Made by a program: the position numbers and the translations under genes. DNA of 64,000 nucleotides from Amyelois transitella (Eukaryota > Arthropoda > Insecta > Lepidoptera > Pyralidae), in the NCBI RefSeq assembly GCF_032362555.1, contig NC_083524.1:1846001-1910000 (forward strand), in the 5' to 3' direction. This document shows positions 15,309-60,489 of the stretch, piece after piece. Every line of letters starts with the position of its first letter. The first letter of the stretch is position 1. The notes beneath the pieces were generated by a model, which was not told the origin of the DNA, did not search any database, and worked only from the letters and a program-made list of their open reading frames with translations.

Positions 15309-17737
15309 ATGGACGTAAATACTTTCCTAATTTTCTATTGGTATTATCGGCGTCGGCAGCGAAATAGAAGATTCTGGGTTCATCCTATTCTGACACAACG
15401 CTCGAATTTGGGTATTTTTCGGAATCTTATGAGCGATTTGAGAAGAGATGAGTCAAAATTTTTCAATTATTTTAGAATGAGTATGACCACATTTGACGAT
15501 CTTTTAAAAAGGGTGAATGAAGATTTAAAAAAACATGATACAAATATGAGAAAAAGCATCACACCTGAAGAAAAGTTAGCAATATGTTTAAGGTAAGAAT
15601 GAAATACATATTTAAAGTTTAATATTTATTACCAAACACAATAAGTTATGTATGTATGATATTTTCACAAGATGATCGTTAATATTAATTAAATATTAGT
15701 GAAATCCGGAAAATCAGAGCTCTGCGATTCAACTGATTGTGCAGATGGCGATGACTGAACGCTGTAATGCGGTGTGAAATAACCTGCTGATTGATAAGAG
15801 TTGTTAAAAGTAGATGGTTGTTGAGAGGACCATTGGTTAAAATTGCGGCTTTTTATATTTTGCAACAAACTTATAACACCTGCTTGAAATTGTAATATTT
15901 GATCATCGTTGAGTGAAGCTAGTGTAGGAAGTAAACTTTTAAAAAATGACAAGTTACGATCTTCATTCTGCGTATTCGGCTGACTTTTCATCTGGTGATC
16001 AATGAAACTCGCCATTTTTTGATCCATTACAGAAAGTCTCTGCCTTGGTAGTACACTTCTCTTAAGTCGTTTAGCACCACCTGCAGGATTTTCTTGTCCT
16101 GGACTTCCGATAATAGGTTCATTTTCACTTTCTTCATTTTGGATAGGATTTTCCGTATCACCCTCTTCAATATCTGCAGCTTTGTTACCGCCACTGTCTT
16201 GTGTTTCAGCCGGATCCATATTTTTTTTTAAAAACAACAACTGGTCGTGATAACAGTATTTTTTGGTATTAACTGCAGCAGATCCAGATTTATTTATTTT
16301 CTTTTTCGCATTTAAACTCCTCTTCCAGCTGTCTCTTATCTGATTCCATTTTTTAACGACCATTTTAGCTGAAAAAGAAAACATAAATTATAAATAAGGG
16401 CGGAGAAAGAACCTTCAACAGCTCCAGTATTAGGTATTCTGCTATTTTTTCAAATTTCAATAATACATTTATATTTTATTGTGATATATTAAAATATCTC
16501 ATAATTATTAACATTTTAATATATAATAATAAATTATAAATATATGCAAATAACTAACGATATTGGTTGAAAATTTGTATTTTGTATTTAAAAATAAATA
16601 AAGTTCTCTCGCTCGACCAATAGCATTATCTATTCGAAGCGAGTTCGATCCCAAAAAATAACAGAATACCTCTGCTGGAAATTTAGTTGTACGTAATGTT
16701 AAAAAATATTACAGGGTTATTACAAAAAAGTTTAACTGACGTTTTTAACACAATGTTTAAAAAACGTACATAGTGATTTTTTTAAATATGTGTTTAACTT
16801 TATTATAATAACACTATATATGTTTTTAATTTGCAGGTACTTGGCATCTGGGTGTTCGTACATGGATTTGCATTACGCATATCGAGTGGGAGTCTCAACA
16901 ATCAACTCAATAATAGTAGAAGTAACAAACGTCATATGGAATAATTTGCATCAGGAGTTTATGAAATTGCCCGACACAAAATATGAGTGGGAACAAATTG
17001 CTGACGCATTTTATAATAAAGCTAACTTTCCTCACTGCATTGGTGCAGTTGATGGGAAGCACATAAGAATGAAGAAACCAAGTCACAGCGGTTCTATGTA
17101 CATGAATTACAAGAATTTTTTTTCCATTGTATTGCTAGCGGTAGTGGATTCGAATTATAGATTCACCTATATCAGCGTAGGCTCTTATGGCAAAGAATGC
17201 GACTCCTCTATATTCAAAGAATCTACTTTCTGGAAAAGATTAAATGATGGCAGTTTAGATTTACCAGAAGCTCGTCCTCTCTTTACAGGTTTGGAATCAC
17301 GTGTTCCATTTGTGATAGTGGGTGATGAAGCATTTGGTTTGCATTATAATCTGTTGAGACCCTATGGAGGAACTCATTTAGATAAAAATAAAAGGATATT
17401 TGACTATCGATTAACAAGAGCCAGACGTTATGTGGAGTGCGCGTTTGGAATATTGGCAAATAAATGGCGAATATTTCATCGTCCATTGGACGTAAGCACC
17501 AGTACAGCTATCTCGATAGTTAAAACTTGCGCCGTGCTTCATAACTATATCATGCATAATGAAAGTTCATATGCGAACATTGACAGCAACGATTCAACGA
17601 TATCTTTGGAAAACGTACGTAATGAGCCAAATACACGAGGTGGACGCTGTGCTAACACAATACGAACAGAGTTCACAAATTATTTTGTTTCTGAAGTGGG
17701 AGCTGTACCTTGGCAAGACGAAGCAATACAAGGATAA
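15309..17737 (+). CDS. HARBI1-like DDE transposase of element B
   Basis: Exon 1 (15309-15592) encodes MDVNTFLIFYWYYRRRQRN and the N-terminal helices, ending ICL-AG|GTAAGA. Exon 2 (16837-17737) starts after TTGCAG and restores RYLASGCSYMDLHY. Catalytic triad: D in [14 protein letters not shown] in VIVGDEAFGL and E in [19 protein letters not shown], followed by CAVLHNYI. The C-terminus TNYFVSEVGAVPWQ is typical. No internal stops. About 395 residues, normal for the family. It should cut at the element's own ends together with the MADF partner. Confidence 0.9.
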
Positions 17738-23837: not shown

Positions 23838-26800
23838 TCATTCATTTCTTTGTAAATTTGTATCCTGAGCGTTGACATTTCTTTCGCCTGTAGATGATGT
23901 TGTTGCTGGGGTATAAATTACGTCATAAGATGTGATATTAAACAAGCCGCTTTCAGTCGAAATAAGAGTTTCATTGTCATTCACTGCAGCAGAACTAATA
24001 GCATTGTCGTTAAGACTCGAAGTATCCTGGATTATACTATTGGTTTGGTAATCTTGATTTATCGGTGAGAAACTGTCAAGCTCAGTAAAAGCACTAGAAC
24101 TTGTTGTAGGTATGGGACTGTAGTATGCAGGTTGTGTTTGACTTTCCATTTCCATAACTATATTTAACACTTTTGTTCTGAACATTAGTTTTTGATATCT
24201 AGTGAATCTTTTTAATGAAGGCTGCAGAGACTGAAAGAAAGCCAAATCCTCACTTTCTAGCTCCAGTTGATTAGACTTTAAGCATTCTAATAACTGTGCC
24301 TCAAATTCAGATGGTGCTTGCTTTTTAGATTTTACTTGTTTTTGTTTTGATGTTAGTTGAGAACTTTCTTGACGTGAAGTACCTGGTTGCGTGGACTCAT
24401 TAGGTGTTTCTAAATTACTTTGTTCAGACATTTCTTCGCAGAGTGACTCTTCTCCAACAGTTTCCGTTGTACTGTCTAAGAAAGTCAAAATGTCATAGTA
24501 AGAATATTTCTTCTTCTTCTTACTCCCAGAGCCGGATGGCTGATTTTTTTCAGATATCTTGTCTTTCTGGTAAGTGTCCCTTGCTGTTCGCCAGCGTTGT
24601 TGTATTTTCTTGTCTGAAATGACAAAATATAATAAGTAAGTGGCAAAAGTACACACAGTTTCAGATCAAGTTACCCAAAACCAGTACCAATAAACGGAAC
24701 TTGCTAGGGCCTCGCCGGGCGGCGAGTCGTCTACGATAATAAACAACGCATGAGTCCTATTTATACTGGTTTTGGGAAGCTTGATCTGTGGCCGTGTGTA
24801 CAAATCTGATATTAGTTGGAAAATTAACTGCATTCGATTAAAGGCCCTCCTTAATTCACACATGTTGTCAACTTTACACTGTCTCATGAAGAATTAGATA
24901 CATCAAGATATATATATATATACCTATACAGAGTGGAAAAATAAGGCCGCAGTTGAAGGAAAAGTACCCATAATATTGATGATGGCAAATTTTACTGAAT
25001 GGAAATAATTCATTTTTTACAAAAATAACACTACCCAACAAAATTGAAGTTAAGGAGAGCAACAGAGACCAGAGTATGATATTCTAGGTAAAACGACCAC
25101 GCTTAATTCGAATCTGAGCTTAGAATTTTGCCTAGACGTCAGGTTTTTTTTTTTTTTTTTCTTTATTAATTGTACAATTTGTTACAGAAAAAATAAAAAA
25201 CCGAGATATAAAATAGCAAGAAATCATTGTAATTAATAAAAAATAAACACATAAAATTATTAATAATGTATATAATCTATTCTAAAGTTGTTTTTCCCTT
25301 TGAATGTGGAGATTTTCTTTTATATTCGCAATCTGATTCTCTTGTAAGGAACCAACAGTAATCGCCCATCATTGCGGAGTCCCATCGACCCTGATATCTT
25401 TTTTCCATCGTAAGAATGTCTTGATGAAATCTTTCACCCATCTCATCACTCACAGCTCCCAAATTTTCGGGGAAGAAACTTAGATGTGAGTGCAAAAAAT
25501 GAATTTTCAGCGACATTCTACAGCCCATTTTTTGGTAGCTTTTCAGCAGATTTTCTATAAGTTCTTTATAGTTTTCTGCTTTTCTATTCCCTAAGAAGTT
25601 TGTGACCACATTTTGAAATGACTTCCAAGCTTGTAATTCGGTGTCATTTAACTTTTTCTCGAAGTCTTCATCTTTCATCAGTTTTCTTATTTGCGGACCC
25701 ACAAAAATACCCTCTTTCAGTTTAGCGTCACTCAATTTAGGAAAAACGCTTTTTAAATATAGAAAAGCAGTACTTTCTTTGTTCAGAGCTTTTACAAAAT
25801 TTTTTATTAGTCCCAACTTGATATGAAGAGGGGGCAGAAGAACATTTTTGGGATCAACAAGTGGCACAAATTTTATATTTTCTTTTCCTGGTTCAAAAGA
25901 ATCTCTATTAGGCCATTCTTTGACAATGTAATGCTTTTGAGTTGCTCTGCTGTCCCAGAGACAAAGGAAGCAACAAAATTTGGTAAAACCTCCCTGAAGA
26001 CCCAGTAACAAAGCTATGACCTTTAAATCTCCACATAGCTGCCATTTATAACGATCATAGTTTATAGATCTAAGGATAAGGGACATATTTTCGTAAGTTT
26101 CCTTCATATTATAAGCGTAAGCTACAGGAATCGATGGTTTTGTATTTCCGTTGTGCAACAAAACCGCCTTAAGACTCGATTTAGAGGAATCTATAAACAA
26201 TCTCCACTCATTGGGCTGATGAGAAATATTTAAATTTTCTATTAGTTTATCTGGATCTGTACAAAAGCAGACATTGTTTTCAGAAGTAAAAAACGTAGAC
26301 AAATGTTTGTTACGATCTCTAAACACACTTATTTTTGTTTCTTTTGCTAATAAATTCCATTGTTGTAACCTGGAGCCCAAAAGTTCAGCGTTTTCTTTTG
26401 TAAGGTTAAGGTCTCGGGCTAAATCGTTAAGTTCAGCTTGATTTATCAAGTGGGGTTCATTAGTACTTATCACAAAATTTGGATCAAATGCTGAAGGTGC
26501 ACTACTGATACAATCTGCACTAGTGGAAGCAATATCGAGTGGTGGAACCGGTATTGGAAATTCTTGGCCATGCGGAACAGGTCTTGTAGATGAAGAAGTA
26601 TCAGGATAGACAATATTGATTTTCGTCTTCCTGGAATGTCCACTGGTCTTAGTTAAGCAAAAGTAGCAGTCCAAGCTGTGATCAGTAGGCTCACGCCACA
26701 TCATTGGCATTGCAAACGGCATCGAAGAACGCTTGCCAGTCATCCATTTTCTCAGACTAGCAACACAAGTAATGCAGCAAATATGAGGAGCCCATTTTTT

Positions 26801-28648
26801 ATTTTGGTGACCAATTGTAAAACCGAAATACGCTTCGTACATCACTTTAACATTCTCACTTACTGGTCTCCTTTGAGTTACGGGTGTAAAATTGCCACAA
26901 ATGAAGCAAAACGTATCAGGGGAATTCACACAACTTATTTTATCAGAATTTTCACTCATTTTAATAACAAATTTTAAATATAACCAAGTTATTACAGAAA
27001 ATACGCAAAGCCAGTATTTGTTGTGTAGTAGTGTCATAAGAAAAATAAAGATACCCTCATTTTATACTTGTCTATCTATCATATCATATGAATTATAAAG
27101 ATACCCTCAAATAAATAGTTGACTATCATCTACATTTTTATCTTAGCCTGTATGCGGGTAAATTATAAAAAAAAATATTTAAAAAAAAACCAGACGTCTA
27201 GACAGATTTTGGTAAGCATATTTGTAATCAGTAATGCTAGTGCTACATCGTGATATAGGTCAGTGTTCTGTTGCCCGAACCTTGTAGACTAGTGTAATTA
27301 GAACTTCATTTAAGGATTTTTGGAAAAACACCGGATTGAATCGGGAAATGCTGCTGTCTTATGTCTGATGTCAGCATTATTAATATATTATGTTATCATA
27401 TTATTAATATATTGTTTTTGTTTTCAGATATTTGGCAACTGGTAATACATTCACTGATCTACACTATTCCTATATGATTGGAATTGCAACAATTAGCGAA
27501 ATAGTAAGACAAGTTTGTTACATAATATGGATTGAACTAAAGTCTGAATGTATTCCACAGCTTAATGGGATCAAATGGAAAGAAATCGCAGAGGGATTTC
27601 TCACATATACAAATTTTCCTAATTGCTTGGGTGCTATTGATGGAAAACATATAAGAGTGATTCGGCCGCCGCACAGTGGATCACTATATTTTAATTATAA
27701 GAAATATTATTCTGTAGTGCTCCTCGCAATGTGTGATGCTGATTATAATTTTACATATATTAATGTCGGTACCAGTGGAAGCAACGCCGATTCAACCATC
27801 TTTAGAAGGAGTCAATTGTATACGAAACTGGAAAGTAACACTGGAAAGTGACACAAAAAGTATCCCTGACCCGCAAGAGTTGCCTATTATTTGCCCCGAA
27901 GTAGCTTATCCATCTAGTGTAAGAGCAAAGTTCCCGTTCGTGATAGTGGGAGATGAGGCATTTGGTTTATCATCACATGTGATGCGGCCTTATGCTCGTG
28001 ATAATTTACCTTACAAAAAGAAAATATTTAATTACCGTCTGTCCAGAGCTAGAAGGTACATAGAATGCACTTTTGGAATTATGTCAAATAAATTTAGAAT
28101 ATTTCACAGATCCATGACTGTCAAGTTAGATCTAGCACAATTAATAGTCAAGACGGCATGTGTACTTCACAATTTCATAAGGAAACGGGATGGCTACATG
28201 GTCAGCCATACATTTGTCACAAATGGTTTTACGGGACCACTACCCAGGCAGCAGACTGAAAGTAGTAATACGTCGGCAAGTAATATCAGAGATATATTTG
28301 CAGATTACTTTATCAATGAAGGAAAAGTCTCCTGGCAACACCGATATATAATTAATTAACTAAACTCAAAAGGTTTTAGAAGGTTTTTGATGTTATTTGT
28401 GAATTAAATAATTATGCTTATATTAATAAAGTAATGATGCTTGTATAAATAAAATAATGAACCAAACACATACCCGCCACTTTTCTTTCCTCTTCGCTCA
28501 AATTTTCGTAGTTAGGTGCCAATTCCTTCAAAATATCTCTCCATGCAGCCTCCCTCGCGTCCCTGTTTTTGTATAATTCATTGCGTTTATCCCACAAAAC
28601 GGGCCGCAGATGAACTTCAATGATTACTCGTTCTGTATCGATTTTCAT
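23838..28648 (-). CDS. MADF-BESS-like DNA-binding protein of element D
   Basis: Exon 1 (28648-28474) reads MKIDTERVIIEVHLRPVLWD and AREAAWRDILKELAPNYENL. Its donor is G|GTATGT. Exon 2 (24613-23838) completes the domain as VADKKIQQRWRTARDTYQKD, then a Lys/Ser-rich linker and a BESS-like segment (LAFFQSLQPSLKRFTRYQKL), ending in an Asn/Ser-rich tail. No stops. Its 3.9-kb intron contains E1, a MITE and the transposase exon 2. It would need accurate removal of all that to be expressed. Role as for the other Harbinger partners, inferred. Confidence 0.8.
24649..24801. mobile_element. MITE copy 2, same family as 23589-23723
   Basis: Ends GTACACACAGTTTCAGATCA and, inverted, GTACACACGGCCACAGATCA, continuing to CCAAAACCAGTA on both sides. 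About 153 bp. The interior differs from copy 1. It flanks exon 2 of D's MADF gene on the opposite side from copy 1. Confidence 0.75.
25028..27295 (-). mobile_element. E1: unclassified single-gene DNA transposon
   Basis: The left end reads ACACTACCCAACAAAATTGA. The right end, inverted, reads ACACTAGTCTACAAGGTTCG, and both then share GCAACAGA. Flanks are AATA (25024-25027) and AATT (27296-27299), a 4-bp duplication with one change. An inner inverted pair CTAGACGTC(A/T)GGTTTTTT lies about 100 bp in from each end (25132 and 27202). One open gene fills the body. Its termini match E2 (52482-54576). It lies in element D's intron, so it is younger than D. Confidence 0.75.
25277..26959 (-). CDS. Putative transposase of E1, family unknown to me
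   Basis: 560 residues from MSENSDKISC, the start that matches its E2 relative; 26 further in-frame codons lie upstream. N-terminal Cys pairs: CFICG near 18, CCITC near 63 and CYFCL near 100, likely zinc-binding. Then NEPHLINQAELNDLARDLNL, LFIDSSKSSLKAVLLHNGN, CGDLKVIALLLGLQGGFTKF, CCFLCLWDSR, HIKLGLIKNFVKAL and GAVSDEMGERFHQDI. The Asp, Asp and Glu in IDSS, GDLK and SDEMGE are plausible DDE residues with a C-x2-C insertion motif. I recall such proteins as 'uncharacterized' in many arthropods. No stops or frameshifts. Confidence 0.65.
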   Translation of the reverse strand: MSENSDKISCVNSPDTFCFICGNFTPVTQRRPVSENVKVMYEAYFGFTIGHQNKKWAPHICCITCVASLRKWMTGKRSSMPFAMPMMWREPTDHSLDCYFCLTKTSGHSRKTKINIVYPDTSSSTRPVPHGQEFPIPVPPLDIASTSADCISSAPSAFDPNFVISTNEPHLINQAELNDLARDLNLTKENAELLGSRLQQWNLLAKETKISVFRDRNKHLSTFFTSENNVCFCTDPDKLIENLNISHQPNEWRLFIDSSKSSLKAVLLHNGNTKPSIPVAYAYNMKETYENMSLILRSINYDRYKWQLCGDLKVIALLLGLQGGFTKFCCFLCLWDSRATQKHYIVKEWPNRDSFEPGKENIKFVPLVDPKNVLLPPLHIKLGLIKNFVKALNKESTAFLYLKSVFPKLSDAKLKEGIFVGPQIRKLMKDEDFEKKLNDTELQAWKSFQNVVTNFLGNRKAENYKELIENLLKSYQKMGCRMSLKIHFLHSHLSFFPENLGAVSDEMGERFHQDILTMEKRYQGRWDSAMMGDYCWFLTRESDCEYKRKSPHSKGKTTLE

Positions 28649-38521: not shown

Positions 38522-39990
38522 TTAAAGTAAGCGATACTGTTTTTGTTGTAATATTTTGTTATAAATTTTTTTTTGTTCGGGTAGCAGGCGTGGTTCAGTT
38601 TCGCTGACCTGAGCGTCTAATAAAGCAATATCGTAGCTTAGCTCTTTGATCAAATCGGTCGACAACTCTCCTCGACGCTCTGGTGTAGGCATACCGAAGT
38701 CAGACAATTTCTTACCGAAAATCGTTATTATTTTGTCCTCTATATGTCTCAGTGCTTCATTGAAACATAGATCATTGTTGACTTGATCCATCCTTTCAAA
38801 TCTATGCAAGATATCCTCCGATAATGCAGATTTATACTTATCCCATAGTAGAAGAGGATTGGATAAACCGCAAGTGCATATCAATATTGCAAATAGTTCT
38901 CTTATTTGCGAAGGAGAGCGACACAGCACTGCCTCTTCCATTGTGGCATCCCAGTGGTTGTCATCTTCCAACAACCCCAACTTCTCACACGCTTGTCGAA
39001 AAGTTTCAAGTTCTTGGCCGTCAACTGTTTTTAGATCCAAAAAGCTAGTGGGTCCCTGTACTACATTCAGCAGCATTCGCAAACAGTAACATTCGAAGTT
39101 ACTAACATGCACTGTGTAAATGCGCCCAAGAGCATCTCCTGCCTTCACACCTGGCCAGCCGTCGACAGGTGTGCCTTGTAAACGACGTTTCCATTCTTTC
39201 GACCGTGGCCGAGCTTTGGCTTTGGCCTTGGCCCTGGTTTGCGGCACCGGTCCAGGTCTTGCAGGTGGCATAAGAGTTGACCCTGTGTTGCCTTCCCTGC
39301 GATCTAGATCCCCAGCATCTTTTTGCCTTCTTCTGTCAGCCGCCAGTGGCGGGCGCAAGATTGGTTCTGGGGCGAGTATGCCCCTCTTTTCGGCTTCATT
39401 TAACCGGGTCGTCACCATTTCGCCTATTTTGACGAACAGGTTCCTCTCATTGGACACCTCAAGCTCGTTAAGGACGTCTTTGAGCTCCGCCATTGTGACT
39501 GGTCCTGATACTGAGGTGGACGGCCCGGCAGATCCGCATAAGCCTTCCGAAGGGCCCTTGTTTCCTGCTCCAGCTGCGTTAGTTGCTCCCGCATTCTTTT
39601 GTTGTCAGCAGTCAGAATTCTGACTGCCGCCGACTCCTCCTGGTGCATTTCAATTTTGTCAGCTGCATCTAGAATGTACTGGCAGGCATCCTTCATTGAT
39701 CGCCATACCGTGCCTTTGAGGTTGCCGGATTTACCGGCTTCCTCCAGTACTTTCTCAACCGACGTCCGTACAACCTCAAGTTGTTCGTCAACGATGCTGG
39801 CGGACTTTGGTGGCGAAGTCTGTGCGCGCCGACCAGCATGACGGCCCCTCGTGGCTGTGTTGATTTTGGGGCCTCGCGATCTTAGTGTAGGCCCCTCCAG
39901 TGCCTTCCGTTTACGGGGAACACTGCCCCTGCCGTGCTTGTAGTCTTCCGTCATTGTGACTTCCGGAAGGCTGTCGTTGTCCTCGTCGGA
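38522..39990 (-). pseudogene. LINE ORF1 copy 2 fused in frame to a Helitron helicase fragment
   Basis: 39990-39210 repeats 34520-33718 almost base for base: coiled-coil, then MAELKDVLNELEVSNERNLF, LRPPLAADRRRQ and AKAKARPR. Without losing frame it passes into SKEWKRRLQG and ALGRIYTVHVSNFECYCLRM, GPTSFLDLKTVDGQELETFR and LLEDDNHWDATMEEAVLCRS. That is the region between the Rep and helicase domains of Helitron proteins. The merged frame is 323 residues (39493-38522), ending KILQQKQYRLL. The Helitron's own Rep and helicase motifs are absent. Probably an insertion or rearrangement junction, not a working gene. Confidence 0.7.
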
Positions 39991-44000: not shown

Positions 44001-47000
44001 AGCCCCTGCTCCGGATTTTTTGACGTCATTTTTATTTGCTCGCATCCAGGCATCTCGTAGATTCGACCACTTTGTAGATACTAATTTACCTGCAATTACA
44101 ATAGGTACATATAGAAATGTTAATTATTTTACCTACTTAATTATTTTACAGATATTGCGCATCGGGTTGTTCCTTCAAAGAATTGCACTATAGTTACAGA
44201 GTTGGTGTGTCAACTATTAGTAAAATCTGCAAAGAAATTAGTTCCACTATCTGGGATGTATTAAGAGACGAGTTCATGCAAATTCCTGATAATGAGCGTA
44301 AATGGTTGGAAATTGCAAAAGGTTTTGATATGAAAGCCAACTTTCCGCACTGTCTTGGAGCAGTTGATGGTAAGCACATAAGAGTGGTGAAACCAAACAA
44401 TACTGGCTCGATGTATTTTAATTACAAAGATTATTTTTCATTTGTTTTACTAGCCGTTGTTGATTCAGAATATCGTTTTATTTTTATGAGTGTTGGCTCG
44501 TATGGAAAAGAATGCGATTCTTCAATATTCAAGGAGTCAACTATATGGAAGAAACTGAATGATGGTAGTTTAAATATACCAAAACCAAGGCCTCTACATG
44601 CAACACTTCAAAATGATATGCCTTATGTTCTCGTGGGCGATGAGGCTTTCCCTCTGTCAACAAATTTGTTAAGACCTTTTGGAGGCACTCATTTAGACCA
44701 CATGAAAAAAATATTTAACTATCGTTTAAGTCGGGCAAGAATGTACGTTGAATGCGCATTCGGTATTTTAGCCAATAAATGGAGAATATTTCATCGGCCA
44801 CTGGATGTCCACCCAGACACGGCTATCGAAATTGTAAAAGCGTGTACAGTATTACACAATTTTGTAAGAGAAAAGGACGGTCTGAACTTTGAAGATATTC
44901 ATTATGCGGCAGAAAATCCGATGCAAGAACAAGTACAACTGCAAAACTGTAATCCACGTGGTGGTCCTATTGCAAATTATATACGGTCTGAATTTGCAAA
45001 CTACTTCGTTTCAACAATAGGCTCGGTGCCTTGGCAACCAGAAGCGCATGGTTAATATTTATGTTTTGAATTTTACGTATATTATTAAATAAATAACTTC
45101 AAACACTTACCACATGATTGTCTTTCTTTTTCGTCCAAATTGTCAAAATTAGGTATGAGTAGGCAGCAAACTTCCCGCCAAGCAGCTATTTTCAGGTTCT
45201 TATCTTTATAATCATTTAGAGTTTTGTCCCAAAGGACACCTCTTTCCTGAACTAGTGTGATCAATTGTTCGGGGTTGATATTTTTTTCCATTACTACGAA
45301 TCACCAAACGTGCGTACAATAAAAACACAACAACTCTGCTTGCGCGCCGCGATGTGTGTGTGCGCGATCGCAGGTACGACGTACGCACGAACGGAATGAG
45401 GGGTAGCGGGGAGAGGGTTATCGGCTCCGACATCAGACAAATGTGAACAGCGCCGTTCTTAATCATAGGCGAGCGAGATCCGACACGATTTTTTTCCGGG
45501 CGTAGAGGGCTGGCAAAACACCCGACATTTCTTGTCGGAGCCGACACAAAATCGGTTTCCGATAAGTGTGAATAGCGTCATATATAATGCTCTGCCACTA
45601 GAACTTCCGTTTAATATACGGATCCGACACCCGACAGGTGGGAACGAGCTCTAAGATTTTTGGCAACAGGAGATTCATTTACAAGCCTTCAATACACCTT
45701 CAGAATTTCAAAACAGTCAATGTCTTGCATTGTACCAGAAGTTTGTGAAGCGATTATAAAAGCATTGAAAGAAAACATTAAGGTGAGTTTTACATATTTT
45801 TATTTATTTATTAAAATAACAAATTAAGCTATTGTATTAAGTACGGTAAGCAAAATTAAAATTATTCCAAAATTAAAATTAGAAAGTTGAATCAAATTGT
45901 ATCTTCAAATCATGTAGTACAAAATTTATTCTTTTCAAATCAGGTCATTCACAAAGTCTACATCTTCATATGAAGTTTGAGATAATTCTGAGGGAACAGG
46001 TGAAGCATATGGAGCAGTAGGGCAACTTGTTTGATTTTGACCTGTTGAATACCCTGAAGTAAGTTCTGAGCGATTAGACAAAGAAGGTGGTTCATTGCAG
46101 TATCTTGATGAAGGAACCGAGCCTGTTGTATACCCACTGTAATTGAATGCCGATGGATAATAATGTTGAGAAAAGTTAGTGCACCCTTCATCGGCTTTGA
46201 ATATTACGTCCATTATTGCTCGCTGCACGGCATTTTTAGTACTTCTGTTATATTGTTGCATCTTGCTGCATATAAAATTTGAAAAGAAAAGGGTTTCACT
46301 GTCAAAATTGTTTGGATTATTGTTCCGGGGTTCAGGAGTAGGACTAGAAGCAGCACTCTTAAGCAGGCCAAGAGCCTCCGAAAGCATACCCATTTTTTTA
46401 TTTTCGTCTGATTTCTTTTTTTTGGGGGCCTGACCAGTTGGTGATATAAATTCTGAACTGTTATCAAACAAACTGTTATCATTTTCGACACTTGTAGATG
46501 CACTCTGTTCCGGTTCATTTGTAATCTGTAATTAAAAAGAAATTCATTGTTTCAGCTGCCAAAAACAGAGTCAGAATGGATCCAGATCTCAAACAGATTT
46601 GATGAATTGTGGAATTTTCCCCATTGTGCCGGAGCCATGGACGGTAAACATGTCATTCTCGAGGCTCCGGTACATAGTGGCACAGAATATCGTAACTACA
46701 AATCTAATTTCAGTATAGTGATGTTTGCTTTAGTAGACGCGGAATATAATTATAAATTTCTGGATGTCGGATGTCAAAGCCGCATTTCAGATGGTGGAAT
46801 TTTTAAGGAAACTGAATTATATAAAAAACTAGAAAATAATTCGTTAAGATTGCCTGCACCTGAAGCACTGCAAGGTAGAAACAAAGTAGTACCATATGTT
46901 TTTGTAGGAGACTCTGCCTTCCCTTTACAAAACAATATAATGAAACCCTATCCAGGAGAATACCCCAAGGGATCGCCGCGAAGAATTTTTAATTACCGGT

Positions 47001-48839
47001 TAAGCAGAGCTCGCAGGATTGTAGAAAATGTATTTGGTATCACAGCATCTGTGTTCAGAGTTCTACGAAAACCTATGCTCCTTCAGCCCAAAACCGTGGA
47101 GACTATAGTCATGGCTATTGCACACTTGCATAATTTTTTGAGAAACACGGATTCATCTAAAAACTTGTATGCACCCCCTGGCTCACTTGACAGCGACCAA
47201 AACGGAAGATTATGTGAAGGTAGTTGGCGGAGAGATTGTGAAATGTCATCTTTACTTCCATTGAATAATGTACCTAGAAGAGCTGCCTCAACGGCAAAAC
47301 AAATTAGGGATGAGTTTAATGACTATTTTATGAACGAGGGTACAGTTTCTTGGCAGAATACATATTGTTAAGTTTTTTTTATCAAGTCGAAGGAAACTAG
47401 TTCAATGCAGTTACCTCTGTGTTGCGTCGTTTCCTTGGATTATTTCGATCTCCTAAAAATGCCAGCGCCTCGTAAGCAAACCATGTACTTTTGTACGTTT
47501 CATCCCCACCTGTAAAATAAATTACAATAAATAAACAATACAATAGAATATAGTACATATATGTATAGTAAAATATAGTAGAATATAGTAATATAGTGGG
47601 TATACAATAGAAGTAATAATTGTACTAATAGCAAGTAAGTGATAATACCGTAAAAACTAAATTAATAAATAAAAGTGTGTAATATGTAAAGCAACATAAA
47701 TTTATAATAAAACATACCTTTTCCGGAACTATGGCTCTTCTTTACTTTTCCTTTTTCTCTTCGATGTGAAGCAAGCAAACTAATCATTTTGTTTTTGCAT
47801 TCTTCTACATCTCTTTCCAATGAATGAGCAATATCACTCCAAGCATCGTGTTTCAGATTTTTTTTATAGTATTGCGGGTTTTTTGGATCCCAAATAACAG
47901 GTTTTTTTTGATACAAACTAATAAGTTCAAGCGATTGTTCGTCACTCCACATCATGAACGTACATACGACACAACCGTCACGAACGCCGTCCAAACGAGC
48001 ACTGCGAGCGTCTTTGTGTTCGCGCGAAAAACCGACAGCCGATGGATCAACCCCGAGCGCCGCGCGAGCGTTACATGTAATGCTCGTAGTGCCGTCCACA
48101 CGTAGAATTCGTGTTACATTACACGGTGGATTACATTACACGTTACACTCGTCTGGACCCGGCTTAATACCTGGAAGCTGGCGAAATGAACCGCCATCAC
48201 AATCGCTACAACCGATGGCCGTCGTACCAAGAAGAGCAACTGAAAATGCCACTACAATACGGTCCCACTTAGCAAGACACTTTGTTACAAACCATACAAT
48301 AGTTTGGCAAAATGAATATCAGTAAACTAATAGCTCACATGTTCCAATGTATCGCGTGTGGTTCCGGGTTCATTTTTATCCGCCATAAAGTCGAAGTCAT
48401 CATACGCAAACCACTTTGATTTATATGTATCTTGAGCACCTGAAATAAACAAGTTACTCATTAAAATCACCACGTGTATTTCTAACAGCTTAAATGTAAA
48501 AAGCGAAATCACGTGAAATCCACAGTAAATATTATGATGTAATTACTTATAATAAAATATATAATTTTAATACCTACAGATAAAAAGTAGCTTTGTTTTC
48601 TTACCGGATTCAGTTATACGGCTTTGCTTCTCTCTGTGTTTCTCCCTTCTGTAGCCTCCCGCCAGAGATCGCATTTTTTTCTTTAGGTTCTCGATCGACT
48701 TATTCCCCATTTCACGAGAAATCTGACGCCAAGCATCATCTCTAACACCTCTATTGGTGTAATTAGAATCTTTGGGATCCCATAAACATTTAAATTCTTT
48801 ATAAAGCAATATCAAACGGCGACTTTCTGAGATGTCCAT
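41045..48839 (-). CDS. MADF-type DNA-binding protein of element H (three exons)
   Basis: Exon 1 (48839-48605): [20 protein letters not shown], then [20 protein letters not shown] and [20 protein letters not shown], a MADF domain. Exon 2 (48439 to about 48342): [20 protein letters not shown]. Exon 3 (41662-41045), inside the transposase intron, begins [12 protein letters not shown], has a basic stretch ([13 protein letters not shown]) that may be a nuclear signal, a helical segment and a Ser/Gln/Pro-rich tail. The open frame looks intact, but its intron now holds I and J (about 6.7 kb). Partner of the transposase by family inference. Confidence 0.8.
42970..45055 (+). CDS. HARBI1-like DDE transposase of element J
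   Basis: Exon 1 (42970-43268): [40 protein letters not shown], ending FL-AG|GTAATA (a slightly unusual donor). Exon 2 (44152-45055) after [29 protein letters not shown] in [29 protein letters not shown] in [11 protein letters not shown] and E in [21 protein letters not shown]-terminus [18 protein letters not shown]. About 400 residues with no defects. Expected to mobilise J together with its MADF partner. Confidence 0.92.
43392..45291 (-). CDS. MADF-BESS-like DNA-binding protein of element J
   Basis: Exon 1 (45291-45111): [40 protein letters not shown]. Exon 2 (44089-43392) joins in frame as [20 protein letters not shown], finishing the MADF domain. Then comes a linker with [13 protein letters not shown] and a BESS-like pair ([20 protein letters not shown]), and a Ser/Asn/Gln-rich end. 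Its acceptor at 44090 and the antisense transposase acceptor at 44151 are 62 bp apart. No defects seen. Confidence 0.88.
45935..47956 (-). CDS. MADF-type DNA-binding protein of element I (three exons)
   Basis: Exon 1 (47956-47718): [60 protein letters not shown]. Exon 2 (about 47511-47415): [20 protein letters not shown], donor GAG|GTAACT. Exon 3 (46525-45935): [10 protein letters not shown], a basic patch ([12 protein letters not shown]), a helical region ([20 protein letters not shown]) and a Ser/Tyr-rich tail. The exon structure is the same as in H. The acceptor of exon 3 is only 30 bp from the transposase acceptor on the other strand. Open throughout. Confidence 0.82.
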
Positions 48840-52477: not shown

Positions 52478-52481
52478 TATT

Positions 52482-54576
52482 ACACTGGTCAACAAAATTT
52501 TAACTTTGTCGTGCCACACGGACTTTTTTGATAATTTTTACTTTAATTGGTGATTGTAAGAAAAAATAAACATTTAAAAAAATTTGCTAGACAAGGATTT
52601 TATTCTATTGAGTAATTTAAAATATTAAGGAAAAACACAGATCTCGTAAATCAAAAGTTATTTTTTTTTATAAATGACTTAATAATCTAAGATTTTCTTG
52701 AATATTTAGCTTCTGGTTGGTCCCTTTTAATTGTCCAGCAGTAATCTGCTAACATATTTGGGCTCCATTTGCCCTGGTACCGCTTTTCCATATTAGAAAT
52801 GTCCTGATGGAACCTCTCACCGTGCTCGTCGCTGACAGCCCCTAAATTGTCAGGAAAAAAATCCAGGTGCGAGTCTAAGAAATGGATCTTAAGTGACATG
52901 TTGCAACCCAATGCTTGATATGACAATAATAGCTCGCTAACCAACTCTCTGTAGCTGTCACTCTTGTGGTTACCCAAAAAATTTGCAACAACATTTTTAA
53001 AAGCCTTCCATGCAGATGTTTCTAAATCGCTTAATTTTTCTTCAAATCTTGAATCTTTTATTAACTCCCTAATTTGAGGGCCAACAAAAATACCCTCTTT
53101 TATCTTTGCATCACTTATTTTAGGGAATTTTTCTTTTAGATACAAAAATCCACTCCCATTGCGATCCATTGCCTTCACAAAATTTTTTATTAATCCTAAT
53201 TTGATATGCAATGGTGGTAGAAGCACATTATTTGGCTGTACAAGGGGTAAATACTTTACGTTTTTTTGCCCAGGAATTAACGATGCACGCGTAGGCCATG
53301 TTTTTTTTATATAGTGATTAGTTCTGTCTCGGCTATCCCATTCACATAAAAAGCAGCAAAACTTTGTATAACCCAGCTGAAGTCCAAGTAATAGTGCAAC
53401 AACTTTAAGATCACCGCAGATTTTGAAGGAATATGTACTGTAATTTATTTTTTCAAGTAAAAGTTTCATATTTTCATAAGTTTCTTTCATATTTTCAGCA
53501 TGGGCCAGAGGTACAGACGGAAACTTATTTCCATTATGCAATAACACTGCTTTTAGACTTGCTTTCGAAGAATCAATGAATAAACGCCACTGAGAGAGAT
53601 CAAAATTTATGTCCAACATTTTCATAATCTCATTTACGTTATTGCAAAACACCAAATCTCCATCCTGAGAAAAATACGTTCTGAAGTGTTGATCACGGTT
53701 TCGAAAATAGCTAACTTTTGTATTATGATGTAGCAAATTCCATTCTTTTAGACGTGATCCTAATAGTTCTGACTGCTTTTTTGACAAATTTAAATCCCGA
53801 ACCAAATCATTTAGGTCTCCTTGAGTTATCAAATGTGGCTCGTTTACAATTCCTTTTAACTCAAAGTCATCATCCCCGTCAACACATTCACTTGAAGTGG
53901 ACGGTTGTGAATTGTTCTCAACAGAAGTAGTTGCAACTGGTATTAGTTCTGGCAATTTTTTACAATGAGAGACTGGTCTTATAGCCGAAGATAAGTTAGG
54001 GTAAATAACTGTGGTTTTTTTCTTGTAATTTATACCTTTTATGTCTGTGAGACAAAAATAGCAATCTGAAACGTGATCTCGCTGTTCAGTCCATATCATG
54101 GGTACAGCAAACGGCATAGGTCGTGCACCTTTCTTCCAGTCAGTTAAATTTTTCACACACGTTATGCAACAGACATGAGGGGCCCAGGATTTGTCTTGAT
54201 GGGCGACAGAAAAACCAAAACATTGTTGATAACACTCCAACACAAGATTCGTAAAATTTCGTCGTTGTTTTTTGAATGTTAGTTCTCCGCAGACATAACA
54301 AAAAGAGTTAGGATCATTATTACACTTTCTCGACATATTCACAGGGTTAATAAATCACAAAAAAGGGTTCAAATTCAACAACAAATATTTTTATAAGGAT
54401 TTACTTGTAAGCGTTTTTGTTAATTTACTGCCGTAGTACTAGTTATGAGTATTACCGTATCACAACAAATATGAGGCTAATAGACATATCACAGCTGTGA
54501 TTTAATAATGAGGGTAGACTGATAAAACAAAATTAGCTATCAAAGTTCGTGTGGCAAAACCAGTGTTGACCAGTGT
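52482..54576 (-). mobile_element. E2: second copy of the unclassified single-gene DNA transposon family
   Basis: Left end ACACTGGTCAACAAAATTTT; right end, inverted, ACACTGGTCAACACTGGTTT. Both then share TGCCACACGRACTTT. Exact 4-bp duplication TATT (52478-52481, 54577-54580). 2,095 bp with one open gene occupying 79%. The exact duplication and intact gene suggest a fairly recent insertion into otherwise empty DNA. Confidence 0.85.
52687..54342 (-). CDS. Putative transposase of E2, family unknown to me
   Basis: 551 residues, no stops. Cys clusters: C15-x2-C18, C58/C59-x2-C62, C94-x2-C97, probably a zinc-binding N-terminal domain. A low-complexity linker follows (about 130-165), then NEPHLITQGDLNDLVRDLNL, D257 in LFIDSSKASLKAVLLHNG, D311 in CGDLKVVALLLGLQLGYTKF, C330-x2-C333 (CFLCEWDSR), H343, H379 in PPLHIKLGLIKNFVKAM, and E506 in SDEHGERFHQDI. 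Spacing and order resemble DDE transposases with an insertion between D2 and E. The start at 54342 or the Met two codons on are equally possible. Confidence 0.7.
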   Translation of the reverse strand: MNMSRKCNNDPNSFCYVCGELTFKKQRRNFTNLVLECYQQCFGFSVAHQDKSWAPHVCCITCVKNLTDWKKGARPMPFAVPMIWTEQRDHVSDCYFCLTDIKGINYKKKTTVIYPNLSSAIRPVSHCKKLPELIPVATTSVENNSQPSTSSECVDGDDDFELKGIVNEPHLITQGDLNDLVRDLNLSKKQSELLGSRLKEWNLLHHNTKVSYFRNRDQHFRTYFSQDGDLVFCNNVNEIMKMLDINFDLSQWRLFIDSSKASLKAVLLHNGNKFPSVPLAHAENMKETYENMKLLLEKINYSTYSFKICGDLKVVALLLGLQLGYTKFCCFLCEWDSRDRTNHYIKKTWPTRASLIPGQKNVKYLPLVQPNNVLLPPLHIKLGLIKNFVKAMDRNGSGFLYLKEKFPKISDAKIKEGIFVGPQIRELIKDSRFEEKLSDLETSAWKAFKNVVANFLGNHKSDSYRELVSELLLSYQALGCNMSLKIHFLDSHLDFFPDNLGAVSDEHGERFHQDISNMEKRYQGKWSPNMLADYCWTIKRDQPEAKYSRKS

Positions 54577-54580
54577 TATT

Positions 54581-55149: not shown

Positions 55150-55344
55150 TCAGCCGTGCCGTTTACGATTTGGTACTGGGAAATTCACCCGAGTGATCTC
55201 AGATCTTGGGCTTGTTTTCTTATTTTTTCTTTGTCTCTTTTAAGCTTTGATTTTTCACGCCATATTTTTCTTATATGTCGCTGCTCTTTCGGAGTAAAGT
55301 CATTAATAGTTTTTATTAATCCTTCTTCTTTTTTGCGTTGATAC
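55150..55344 (-). pseudogene. Fragment of a basic, Lys/Arg-rich repetitive protein
   Basis: Reads QRKKEEGLIKTINDFTPKEQ, RHIRKIWREKSKLKRDKEKI, ending DLRSLG with a stop. The TPKEQR..RK.WR..S pattern is one I recall from uncharacterised insect transposon-associated proteins. It abuts the Gypsy RT remnant at 55345. Confidence 0.35.
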
Positions 55345-58057
55345 CAAGTGACGCAGGTTGGTTGGTCTAGCCAGGGCTAAGATCGTTGCAGTCTTTTCAG
55401 GGTCAACTTCGCGACCTCTGGGTGTTATACATATAATGACCCAAATCTTCACCGTTGAGCAACAAAAACGGCACTTCTTTAGATTGACGATTAGATTAAA
55501 TTCCCATAATTTGGAGAAAACTTTGATCAGATCTGCAAGATGGCTTTCGAAAGAGGGAGAAAACACGATCAAATCGTCTAGGTAGGCTAGCAATTTTATA
55601 TCAAGGCTAATCTTGAATTTGTCTATTAGCCGTTGAAATGTGGCTGGCGCATTTCGTAGACCAAATGGCATGCAATTGAAAACATAAATTCCGAAGGGTG
55701 TTATGAAGCCAGTCTTTGCTTTTTCTTCTTGAGAGACTTCTATTTGCCAGTATCCTGCTTTAAAATCAAGGGTCGACATAAACGGGATAGGTTTAGCCTC
55801 ATGCAATAGATCATCCAATCTCGGTATTGGGTAAGTATCCGGAACAGTAATTGCATTTAGCAGGCGATAGTCGACGCATACTCGGATTTCCCCATTTTGT
55901 TTCGGTACGAGTACTACTGGTGCAGTCCAAGGCGTGCTTGACGGCTCTATAACTCCTTCTTGGACCATTTTGTCAATCTCCTTTCGCAGTATTTCTCTCC
56001 GGGACGGTGAAAGACTGTAAGGAGGAACTGAAATTGGCCCTTTCCCAGCAGTATCAATTGTATGTACTACGTTTCTAGCTGGTTTCCCATTTGGCTGGAA
56101 GACTCGTTCGTGCTTATTCAATAAGTCTTTCAACTGATCACGTTATTGGGCACTAAGCTCATTGTTGACAGGAAATTCGATATCCATTGAGTTTACTGTC
56201 TGGAAAGAGTGACATCGAGTGAGGGGATAAATTAACTTCCTCTTGATGAATGTTCATTTGAGCATCTCGGAACATATAGTTCAGCCTAGGCGAATGACCA
56301 TCAAACAACGTTCTTGTCTTTTTAGGAGTAGACGGCTGCAATCTGTGTAACTGATAACTTTCTTATTTCCAGATTCATTCGGAACGCTGGCTGATTTTCC
56401 ATTCATCGCTGTACTGCAGTTCTAGGGGTTACTTGATTCACTTGCTACTGAAACTGGAGTGACAGCATATTCCGGATTTGGACGTTTATTAGTTATACTT
56501 GTAGCAACAGGGCTCTTGTTTTCAAAGTTGATGAAATCCTCCGTGTATAGCTCGTAATTTTCTTAATCATTATCGATAATATGTCATAATTGAGGAAGAT
56601 TCAAAATCATCTGAGCCTGTTGTATAAATCCTACTCCAAGTAGAGTGCGGTTATCTCTAGCCTCAGGTTGTACAATGAATGAAGTAGTGAAGACACATCC
56701 AGATAATGTAATTTCTGCATCAATCGTCAAAACATTTTGCTGTTTCGGAAAACCATCGGCTAGGGTAATTTGAACTGACTGCTGTCTGAAGGCGAAGCCT
56801 TTTTCTAGTAGACGACCGTATAGCCAGTATGATGCGACGCTCGTCTTTGCACAAGTGTCGATGTAAGCGCTGCCATTTACCATTGACGCTAATGAATACT
56901 ACAGGTCGGGGCCTCGGGGCAACTTTAATGTTGAGCGACCAGAAATCAATACCTTCCTTCTTGACATTTGCAGATAACTTATTAGTGCATTTGGGACAGT
57001 TGGAACGAACCACTCCCGGTGCGCCGCAACCGTAAACACGAAAATTTTGGTTGTGACGGTGAAGGTGCTTGCGTTTGAACAGATGAGGGCCCCGATGTCG
57101 GTTTTCTTCTTCCTGCATACTTCCTCCGTATCCGAGATTTCGACAGAAAGTGCATCTTGGCTTCTTACCACCTTTATGATCCGCGCGTGTCTCAATGTCA
57201 CCTTTTTCTTTAAGAACTCCTTCTACCTCTCGAGCGCTTGCTATAAGGTCATCGAAGGCGCTAATCAAACTTTTAGGTACTTTGTCTCTTATATCCACGC
57301 GAAGAAGGCCAAAGATCATGTCTATTTGCTGAACTTCTATGTGATGTAGTTCCGGCAACTGGGCAAACAGCATTCTTTTCTTGGACATGAACTTTTCCGT
57401 ACTTTCGGTAGGATATTGTTAAGTAGTGTTAATCTCATTGCACAGTTCGAAGACTGGCTTTTGAGGTGCAAATGTTTTTCTTAACAATGCTTCGAAGCTG
57501 CTCATTGTTGGTACTTGACTTTTCACTCCCTGCCACCATTCACCAGCTTCTCCAATGAGAATTAATGGTAGTCCACTAATAACGTCCTTTTCAGGAATGT
57601 GTTCCGTACGCCTGAAAATATTTAGAGCACAGAGGAAAGCTTCGACTGCCTTTGCATCCTTCCTGCCATCATAGGTGGTGGTGCATAACGTCATCGACTT
57701 CCTTTGGTGTAGGGTTGCTAAGAGTTCTCGCTGCTGTAGCCGCTGATGTTCCAGTAGCTGCAGAAACTGGTCCTGACTCATCGCCATCTTCCCTTGTCGT
57801 TTCTGCCTGACAGGTGTTGAAGTTATTCGTCCGGATCGAGTCACGTATCTTGGTTGTCGCTCAGGAGTTGTGCCCGCGTTGGTCGCCACTTTGTAGGCCT
57901 CGGTCTCGAATTTTGCGGGCAGCGGGGTGGCGGCGGCGGCGGCGCGGGAGAGGGGCGGGCAACGCATACCTGTTCTCGAAACCAGCGGGCAGATCGCGCG
58001 GTACTGTAGCGGTGTAGTGATGTGTTCGTGGTTGTGTTGTCGACATTCGCAAACGAA

Positions 58058-60489
58058 ATGTCTGAAAATCGGCGACAACATCTTTTTGATTCAAATGTAT
58101 TCCTAACGCTCGATTTATTGTGGGCAAAAGAAGAAGTGGATCCCTACTATAAGGCAAGGAAAATAAATGGCGAGTTTTATCGAAATTATGAAGAACAGAG
58201 ACAAAATCCCGATAAATTCTACGACTACACCAGAATGAGTGTAGAAACTTTTGACTATATTCTAGAAACTATCAAGAGTGATTTACAGTCTGGAATTAAT
58301 CCAAAAAGTTTTAGAGGTATATCTCCAGCAGAAAAATTATACATAACGCTTGGGTAAGTAAAACAACGAAATTGTAATTTGTAATTGTATTTATTGATAG
58401 TTTCAAAAAGGAAGTGTTGTACCTACTAATTTAGTAAATAGTTTGGCATCGGTATTAAGTTCCCAGATACAATAATTTTAATTAAATACCTACTACACAC
58501 TAATCAGCCTTAATTATTTATCTTTGACGAAAAATATAATATAAAAACGTTTCGTATGAAATAAGTAACATAACAGTTTGTCATTTATTTTTAAAATCAC
58601 AGTTTTCGTTTGTACTACGATTAATTATTTCTACAATCACAGTTTTCTCACTCATTTACAGTATTTTTATTACAAGGTCGATATACTTAGTGGTCAGTAT
58701 AATAATTCCACGCTAATCTTAAAACTAAATCTTCTCTCTAAAATTAAAGTTCTCATCTGTACGACGATTAGTTAACTATTTAAATCACAGTTTTGTTATT
58801 TATTGACAGTATTTTCATTATAAGATTGATATACCTCTATTGTTGAGTACTATACCCATACATATATGATTCATTAGAAGGGTACGTGCTTTCATTTACA
58901 CTTAACTCATCTAGAAGAGCTTGATTAATTTTTTGTCTTACTCTAAACTTTTGAAAGGGCGTGAATTTTTCCATTTGTGGAAGTAAACTCATAAAAAAGT
59001 AGTAGTCATCAGACTTATTCTCATTTCTAGAAGCCTCGTTTCTACTTTGATTTGATAAATCATTTTCCAGCAGTCTTATCCTTTTCCTTTCCAATTCTAA
59101 AAATTCAGTTCTTATGTCATTCGCTGTTCTCTTTTTTCTTGATCGTTGTGACGCAGAAGCTTCTCTTGGAGGCGTAGAAATTTCTTGCAATGATGTAGAA
59201 GCTTCTTGAGAAGAAACAGGAGCCTCTTGTGAGGATGTAGAAGGTTGTTGTGGATAAATAGAAGATTCTTCATTATGACCGGTTGTATCTTCTTGAGAGT
59301 TTTCTCCAGATATGTCTTCTGTCTCAAACGAATCATTACTTATCTGATTACTTACTTCAGGTCTGCTTAAATTACCCTCAGTAACATTTGGTACAACTTC
59401 ATCTTGCAAAAACCTCAATTGAGAAAAATATTGCCAATTTGAGGGTTGATTAACATTTCCGGCATCTCCTGATCTAGGGGCAGGATTTTTTTTTAATTCC
59501 TTTCTATAGTGATCTTTTAAATTTTTCCATTTCTTCTTTAAATCGGTCACTGAAACAAAGAACGAACAGACTATTTATTACATACATAACTTTAACATAT
59601 ACATGCTTTAATTTTCAGGTTTTTGGCGAGTGGGCAGCCTTTCAAAAGACTGTCATTGTCATTCAGAATGGGAAAAACAACGGTAGCCAACATAGTTTAT
59701 GGCACTTGTAAAGCTATATGGAAAAATTTGGTACATTTACATATGCCAAAACCGACAGAAGAATTATTGAAAAATATAGCGGAAAAATACTATGAAAAAT
59801 GGCAATTTCCTAATTGCGTTGGTGCTATTGATGGCAAGCACTGTCGAATAAAAAATCCTAAGTTCGCTGGATCATCGCATTATAATTATAAACATTTCTT
59901 TTCGATGCACTTGCAAGCGGTCGCGGATGCTGACAAAAGATTCGTTTGTATAGAAGTTGGAGGAAGAGGGAAACAAAGTGATGCAGGGACATTCCATTAC
60001 TCTAATTTGAACCGTTTACTTCAAAGTAATAACTACAATATACCAGGTCCACAATATCTACCCACATCAGATATCGTTCTACCAATGGTTTTTATTGGAG
60101 ATGAAGGATATCCACTCAAAACATATTTGATGCGACCTTATCCACAAAGCGTACTTAATGCACAAAGTGAGTTATTTAATAAGCGATTATCGCGGGCTCG
60201 AAAGACTATTGAGTGTGCTTTCGGAATTTTAAGATCCAAGTGGCATATTTTCAGATCGCCCATAGAGACAAACAAATGTCATGCAAGATTACTCATCAAA
60301 ACTTGCTGTTTGTTGCATAACATTATCCGAGATAAGGACGGTGATAATGACATTGCCTATATTACTGTCAATACGAATCAACAAACATTACAAACACGAT
60401 TACAAACCAACGCCCGGACGTCTTATCAAGCACAATATATACGTGAAAAATTCAAAGAATATTTTGTAAATAATCCCATTAGCTACTAA
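58058..60489 (+). CDS. HARBI1-like DDE transposase of element L
   Basis: Exon 1 (58058-58353): MSENRRQHLFDSNVFLTLDL, FYDYTRMSVETFDYILETIK, ending LG at GG|GTAAGT. Exon 2 (59619-60489): FLASGQPFKRLSLSFRMGKT, D in GAIDGKHCRIKNP, GRGKQSDAGTFHYS, D in VFIGDEGYPLKTYLMRPYP and E in RARKTIECAFGILRSKWHIF, then CCLLHNII. C-terminus REKFKEYFVNNPISY. No defects. More divergent from B/J than H and I are from each other. Confidence 0.92.

Follow-up and report, generated by a model that had tools for sequence, protein, structure and literature searches.

Asymmetric transposon ends with inner motifs at bases 20 and 30 in six Chapaev3-like families of Amyelois transitella

Introduction

Chapaev3 belongs to the DDE transposases, in the clade that also includes CACTA, Mirage, Chapaev, Transib and RAG1. 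As set out in sections of PMC4079192, its elements have CAC/GTG termini and duplicate a 3-bp TWA target that lies between A and T, the transposases carry C(2)C, LH and H(4)H motifs, and all Chapaev3 examined there have TWA duplications. Garfield, a 2289-bp element, encodes a 556-aa protein (PMC4079192, in part). A passage of PMC4411706 also describes an N-terminal zinc domain, 'Chapa', in Chapaev3 transposases. Beyond V(D)J recombination, passages of PMC8355894 give the 12/23 asymmetry as known only in some Transibs; sections of PMC8289069 ascribe symmetric TIRs to most Transib families and spacers of 27/31 to ProtoRAG.

Here we analysed two elements, E1 and E2, from a 64,000-nucleotide stretch of the Amyelois transitella genome (the window; contig C20, 1846001-1910000), which had been the subject of a sequence-only reading, together with a genome search over 327 Mb in 33 contigs. 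The window is a dense transposon cluster. It also holds PIF/Harbinger frames at 16790-17737, 46547-47371 and 59623-60489 (DDE_Tnp_4, E 4.6e-31 to 1.3e-23), a MADF/BESS frame at 23838-24656, LTR-type retroelement sequence at 4617-6599 and 55303-56133 with RNase H/integrase and reverse transcriptase frames, and a mariner-type transposase fragment at 10998-11765 (Transposase_1, HTH_48). The frame at 111-713 and a 323-aa frame at 38522-39493 gave no Pfam match at E<=0.01; by eye, the former resembles a piece of an ISXO2/Merlin-type transposase.

Ends, copies and mobility of E1 and E2

Both elements contain a single long frame on the minus strand (Table 1). The sequence-only reading had proposed a TIR element with an intact gene at the place of E2, and E1 as an independent copy; both are confirmed, E1 being a different copy type that lies at 25.0-27.3 kb. 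The outer A and T that it included in E2 are part of the target duplication; the true termini are CACTGGTCAACA and TGTTGACCAGTG, and the elements start with CAC and finish with GTG. Of the protein lengths given there, the 560 residues of E1 hold, but the 551-residue frame of E2 begins with GTG and its first ATG yields 549. With up to 3 mismatches allowed, the 13-mer terminus matches the window 20 times against 16.8 expected by chance, so that the informative evidence is confined to the exact pair at both ends, the copies elsewhere in the genome and the empty sites.

Table 1 Features of E2 and E1, in positions of the window; residues follow the 551-residue numbering of E2
Feature	Position	Strand	Remarks
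E2, very probable Chapaev3 transposon, 2093 bp	52483..54575	- (transposase strand)	ends, genome copies
3-bp target duplication TTA, left of E2	52480..52482	.	borders, empty site
3-bp target duplication TTA, right of E2	54576..54578	.	borders, empty site
E2 transposase, 549 aa from ATG	52687..54336	-	551-aa frame begins with GTG at 54342
E2 transposase residues D257, D311, C330/C333, L378-H379, H487/H492, E509			551 numbering
E2 outer 12-mer, long end (gene 3' end)	52483..52494	+	
E2 inner motif GCCACACG, long end	52513..52520	+	offset 30, spacer 18
E2 outer 12-mer, short end (gene 5' end)	54564..54575	-	
E2 inner motif GCCACACG, short end	54548..54555	-	offset 20, spacer 8
E1, second family, very probably Chapaev3, 2266 bp	25029..27294	-	flanking TAA at 25026-25028 and 27295-27297
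E1 transposase, 560 aa	25277..26959	-	58% identity to E2 transposase
E1 inner motif GCAACAGA, long end	25059..25066	+	offset 30
E1 inner motif GCAACAGA, short end	27267..27274	-	offset 20

Borders were examined in 30 copies (L001-L030), 20 of E2, of which 19 have both ends, and 10 of E1. An exact 3-bp duplication flanks all 19 of these E2 copies and 8 of the 10 E1 copies. In E1 copy L023 the two flanks do not match (TAA against TTA), and in L027 the CAC end is lost (GATT instead). The 19 E2 duplications comprise TTA (9), TAA (3), CTA (2), TAT (2), ATA, TTT and TCA (1 each), and are flanked by A at -4 in 18/19 and by T at +4 in 19/19. TWA is therefore preferred and non-exclusive, being used by 12/19 E2 copies and 7/8 E1 copies, the eighth of which has TAT. 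PIF/Harbinger elements also make TWA duplications. A 4-bp duplication had been read from the window, and the other copies correct this to 3 bp; the window E1 itself reads TAA/TAA, so the AATA/AATT mismatch previously ascribed to it vanishes.

Paralogous empty sites were found for two E2 copies: L048 for the window E2, and L026, L052 and L033 for copy L002. Their flanks are contiguous over one target, which is unchanged in L026 and differs from the filled site by one or two bases in L048, L052 and L033.

At least 20 places in the genome match the E2 protein at 99-100% identity over more than 440 residues; this search scored 79 of 189 candidates, hence the copy counts are lower bounds. Seventeen of 20 E2 copies measure 2093 bp, with a mean of 0.94 differing bases per pair and 10 copies identical. 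Using the 100-bp E2 ends as queries returned the same 21 places, including one shortened copy (C23) and one longer by 2.3 kb (C20:7.59 Mb). The left-end query also finds three more divergent places (93, 81 and 78% identity). Diverged E2 relatives (L056-L058) show one end, and their other ends were not found at the positions expected for a full-length element (L061-L063). Since the copies are near-identical and the closest database protein among the matches listed is 78% identical, E2 looks like a recent burst, which perhaps followed horizontal transfer. E2 and E1 are apparently autonomous.

Many copies with long intact frames might also be expected of an array of host genes or pseudogenes, but exact duplications, empty sites and near-identical copies across many contigs make that scarcely credible. 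We conclude that E1 and E2 are genuine cut-and-paste transposons that have moved recently, and the mobility claimed for them earlier is borne out by the same three observations.

Transposase and placement in Chapaev3

Neither transposase gave a match above cut-off in Pfam, and NCBIfam and PHROGs gave none. At E<=10, neither PF12940 (Transib) nor DDE_Tnp_4 matched E1 or E2; the three Harbinger frames of the window do match the latter. A profile search of the PDB returned one match, unrelated and at E 1.5, and sub-threshold zf-AD matches (E1: E 0.19) were the sole family-level sign. Proteins resembling E2 number 2248 at E<=0.001 among 7994 scored, and the best 120 are mostly unnamed or 'uncharacterized'. 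This had been stated in the sequence-only reading and holds among the matches listed, arthropods included; the few named relatives there include proteins of arthropods, a frog, a lizard and Hydra. In P0056 of Cordylochernes scorpioides (942 aa), mariner-type domains are joined to an E2-like stretch of 68% identity, and this protein is probably an annotation fusion of two elements.

We aligned 137 sequences (A1), namely E2, E1 and 135 of 240 listed homologues, drawn from 235 of suitable length at a mutual identity below 72%. Nine residues are invariant in 137/137: D257, D311, C330, C333, L378, H379, H487, H492 and E509. The C(2)C, LH and H(4)H motifs and the DDE residues are thus present in every aligned sequence. 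In the N-terminal region C59, C62, H90, C94 and C97 are likewise found in 137/137, with C15 in 132 and C18 in 133. The N-terminal Cys clusters, D257, D311 and C-x2-C were already noticed in the sequence-only reading and are confirmed; the clusters appear to be in line with the published Chapa domain.

The DDE core proposed there ended in E506, which is Glu in 136 of the 137 sequences and Ala in one. We compared A1 with a profile of 50 Transibs (A2: L053 and 49 of 120 listed relatives). The hhalign alignment is weak (probability 3%, P 0.014) and pairs SDEHGE509RFHQ with LSEDAQE597SRNK, in which the second Glu corresponds to HzTransib E436. A passage of PMC6941560 gives the HzTransib active site as D126, D225 and E436, and these fit the alignment of a local Transib copy, L052, with a constant shift of 17 (counted by hand). 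Because this weak profile alignment sets the invariant E509 on the Transib catalytic Glu, it is suggestive of E509 as a better catalytic candidate than E506; D257 and D311 stand.

The CAC/GTG termini, the duplication, the C(2)C, LH and H(4)H motifs and a length of about 550 residues match the published description, and for this reason we place E1 and E2 in Chapaev3, as elements moving by cut-and-paste, with high confidence. Garfield, Merrow and Conan (Repbase) share with them the CAC/GTG termini, a 3-bp duplication between A and T, an element size of 2.0-2.5 kb and a protein of about 550 aa with all three motifs. Two differences concern gene and target: Garfield and Merrow have two exons, while E1 and E2 have a single frame like most other Chapaev3, and, unlike the published elements, E2 has TWA in only 12/19 duplications (sections of PMC4079192). 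CAC/GTG termini were found in a representative of each of six families compared below, the exceptions being the E1 copy L027 (GATT) and the E5 copy L040 (GACAGG).

The family had earlier been called unplaceable, with a possible link to Sola, and the profile check suggested at the time indeed yields nothing above cut-off in Pfam; the named superfamily is reached by published features, not by alignment. Sola makes 4-bp target duplications, and the 4-bp duplication behind the Sola/Kolobok idea was a misread 3-bp one. A new superfamily, or a distant relative of Sola or Kolobok, would suit the lack of matches above cut-off in Pfam, NCBIfam and PHROGs and of a direct sequence match to a named family, but is improbable given the 3-bp duplication and the agreement of termini, duplication, size and motifs with the published Chapaev3 set.

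It is very improbable that E1 and E2 fall instead in EnSpm/CACTA or Transib, other branches of the clade. EnSpm does share the CAC..GTG termini, 3-bp duplications and a C(2)C/H(3-4)H pair (PMC12730594, in part), but the combination of an LH motif, a length near 550 residues and A-TWA-T targets is that of Chapaev3. A local Transib copy, L052, located through weak PF12940 matches, matches HzTransib (6PQN set, E 2.4e-108), and a sister copy (L064, L053, L065; C32:1767208-1770338) has CACAGTG/CACTATG termini. HzTransib and the local copy resemble E2 in the D..D-CxxC..H..E layout, CAC termini and an aligned S-x-E-x-x-E. Unlike E2, the local Transib has a 660-aa protein, a 5-bp duplication (AGCCG) and inner motifs at 25 and 26, which makes its ends symmetric within one base. 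We also searched for relatives by peptide pattern, which 2 and 34 stretches of viral contigs and 52 of prokaryote contigs fit; none was confirmed as a relative, so the end geometry was examined in this one genome only.

End geometry in six families

Six Chapaev3 families were compared in the genome: E1, E2, E3 (L031, L032 and others), E4 (L034 and others), E5 (L038, L040 and others) and E7 (L059), the last seen only as copies of 1.3-1.7 kb. A further candidate family (L039, L043, L045) was rejected, as its members are E1 copies at 99.2-99.8% identity. Every end has an outer 12-mer resembling CACWRSYYWRCA, which a spacer separates from an inner motif. With the first base counted as 0, this motif starts at base 20 of one end and base 30 of the other in 6/6 families. 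Its sequence matches within one element and is family-specific: GCAACAGA in E1, GCCACACG in E2, GGTGC in E3 and E5, GTTTCCT in E4 and GTTGCC in E7. E4 has a second copy of its motif at 212; otherwise each end carries its motif a single time in its first 300 bases.

In a joint test of 741 offset pairs, (20,30) scored best with 39/42 matching bases; neither 300 shuffles nor 300 sets of internal segments from the same elements exceeded 29. This test included E7 and used E3 copy L032, whose A/T run gives 18, instead of L031. With L031 the pair is still best at 37/42; the score is 33/35 without E3 and 27/28 for E1, E2, E4 and E7 alone. Scanned family by family, the picture is uneven. A shift of 10 is best for E1 (p 0.082), E2 (0.0015) and E5 (0/2000); E3 gives 9 (p 0.04) because the copy used has a shorter A/T run, and E4 gives 14 (p 0.23) because of poly-T.

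Genome-wide, we searched for 12-mer and inner motif with the spacer free from 2 to 30; the inner motifs had been chosen after inspection of the ends, and reversed control patterns gave 0 or 1 match each. Of 72 convergent pairs, 69 combine spacers of 8 and 18 and three combine 8 with 16, 17 or 19; there were 0/72 pairs of 8/8 and 0/72 of two long spacers. All pairs are 8/18 in E1 (43 matches, 20 pairs; three others are a long end, a short end and one spacer of 28), E2 (44 matches, 21 pairs; two single long ends), E4 (26 matches, 12 pairs; two single short ends) and E7 (21 matches, 9 pairs; two single long ends and one spacer of 19). A joint search for E3 and E5 gave 29 matches, with five E5 pairs, all 8/18, and five E3 pairs of 8 with 18, 18, 17, 16 and 19, a spread that reflects the varying length of the A/T run. 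The nine others include two unrelated-looking spacers of 13, an E3 long end of 16 and a same-strand 18 and 8. Shortened E4 copies of 1.1 kb (C5, C6, C12, C24, C29) and 1.3 kb (C19, C20, C32) keep one 8- and one 18-base spacer, as do shortened E7 copies of 1.3-1.7 kb at nine places. As anatomy, the asymmetry of the ends is firmly established in this one genome.

The two ends also differ next to the 12-mer, which is followed by AAA at the long end and by other bases at the short end in 6/6 families. The long end lies at the gene 3' end in E1 and E2 and at the gene 5' end in E3, E4, E5 and E7. Because AAA marks the long end throughout while its polarity differs, the gene seems to have been inverted relative to ends that preserved their identity. 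Protein identity is 58% between E1 and E2, 62-63% among E3, E4 and E5, and 47-50% between these clades, with E7 fragments 65% identical to E5. The sample represents at most six independent families in two protein clades, and copies within a family are non-independent.

Discussion

The layout suggests how the ends might be used. Most likely, the transposase would bind two bipartite ends, both composed of one inner motif and an outer 12-mer whose initial CAC would mark the cut, and would bring together one short-spacer and one long-spacer end, reading their asymmetry. A putative D257/D311/E509 active site, presumably in an RNase H fold whose C(2)C..H(4)H insertion is probably zinc-bound, would then cut at the CAC borders. 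Cleavage may leave the flanking DNA with a hairpin, in the manner of Transib and RAG, and the element would be joined across a 3-bp stagger at A-A-TWA-T-T-like targets.

We tentatively propose that Chapaev3 follows a 12/23-like pairing rule, a short-spacer end (20) being joined with a long-spacer end (30), one helical turn apart; we regard this as a possibility somewhat short of probable. RAG1 and its RSSs resemble the ends described here in being bipartite, beginning with CAC and having two spacer lengths. Counted from the cut, the RSS nonamers begin at 7+12=19 and 7+23=30 (by arithmetic from part of PMC8289069), and the Chapaev3 inner motifs at 20 and 30. Chapaev3 differs in that its inner motifs are unlike the RSS nonamer ACAAAAACC, its duplication is 3 bp and each element has a single gene.

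Alternatively, the 20/30 geometry may be merely inherited and unread by the transposase, with the inner motif acting in regulation or being no more than a passive subterminal repeat. CACTA elements carry subterminal repeats, the six families share ancestry and one genome, and the E3 long spacer varies (16, 17, 18, 18 and 19 in five paired copies). Against this, the motif sequences differ by family (GCAACAG, GCCACAC, GGTGC, GTTTCCT, GTTGCC) while the match within an element and the positions are kept, apart from the second E4 copy no end has more than one motif in its first 300 bases, and shortened E4 and E7 copies retain both spacer classes. We consider a passive motif possible, if doubtful. 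A functional pairing rule at Chapaev3 ends would in any case be testable.

What appears to be new is the 20/30 layout itself, kept in six Chapaev3 families despite changed motif sequences. An asymmetric layout for Chapaev3 was not found reported in a search confined to a collection of PMC papers; in the main text of PMC4079192 the strings 'asymmetr' and 'subterminal' occur 0 times, and the parts consulted describe no asymmetric ends.

As an element, E2 is another Chapaev3, notable mainly for its recent movement, and the end geometry matters more. If the pairing rule is true, the end geometry of V(D)J recombination would be recurrent or ancestral across the wider CACTA/Chapaev/Transib/RAG clade instead of a peculiarity of RAG and some Transibs. 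If the transposase reads the 20/30 layout, the origin of the 12/23 rule would become testable with small, single-gene, recently mobile elements.
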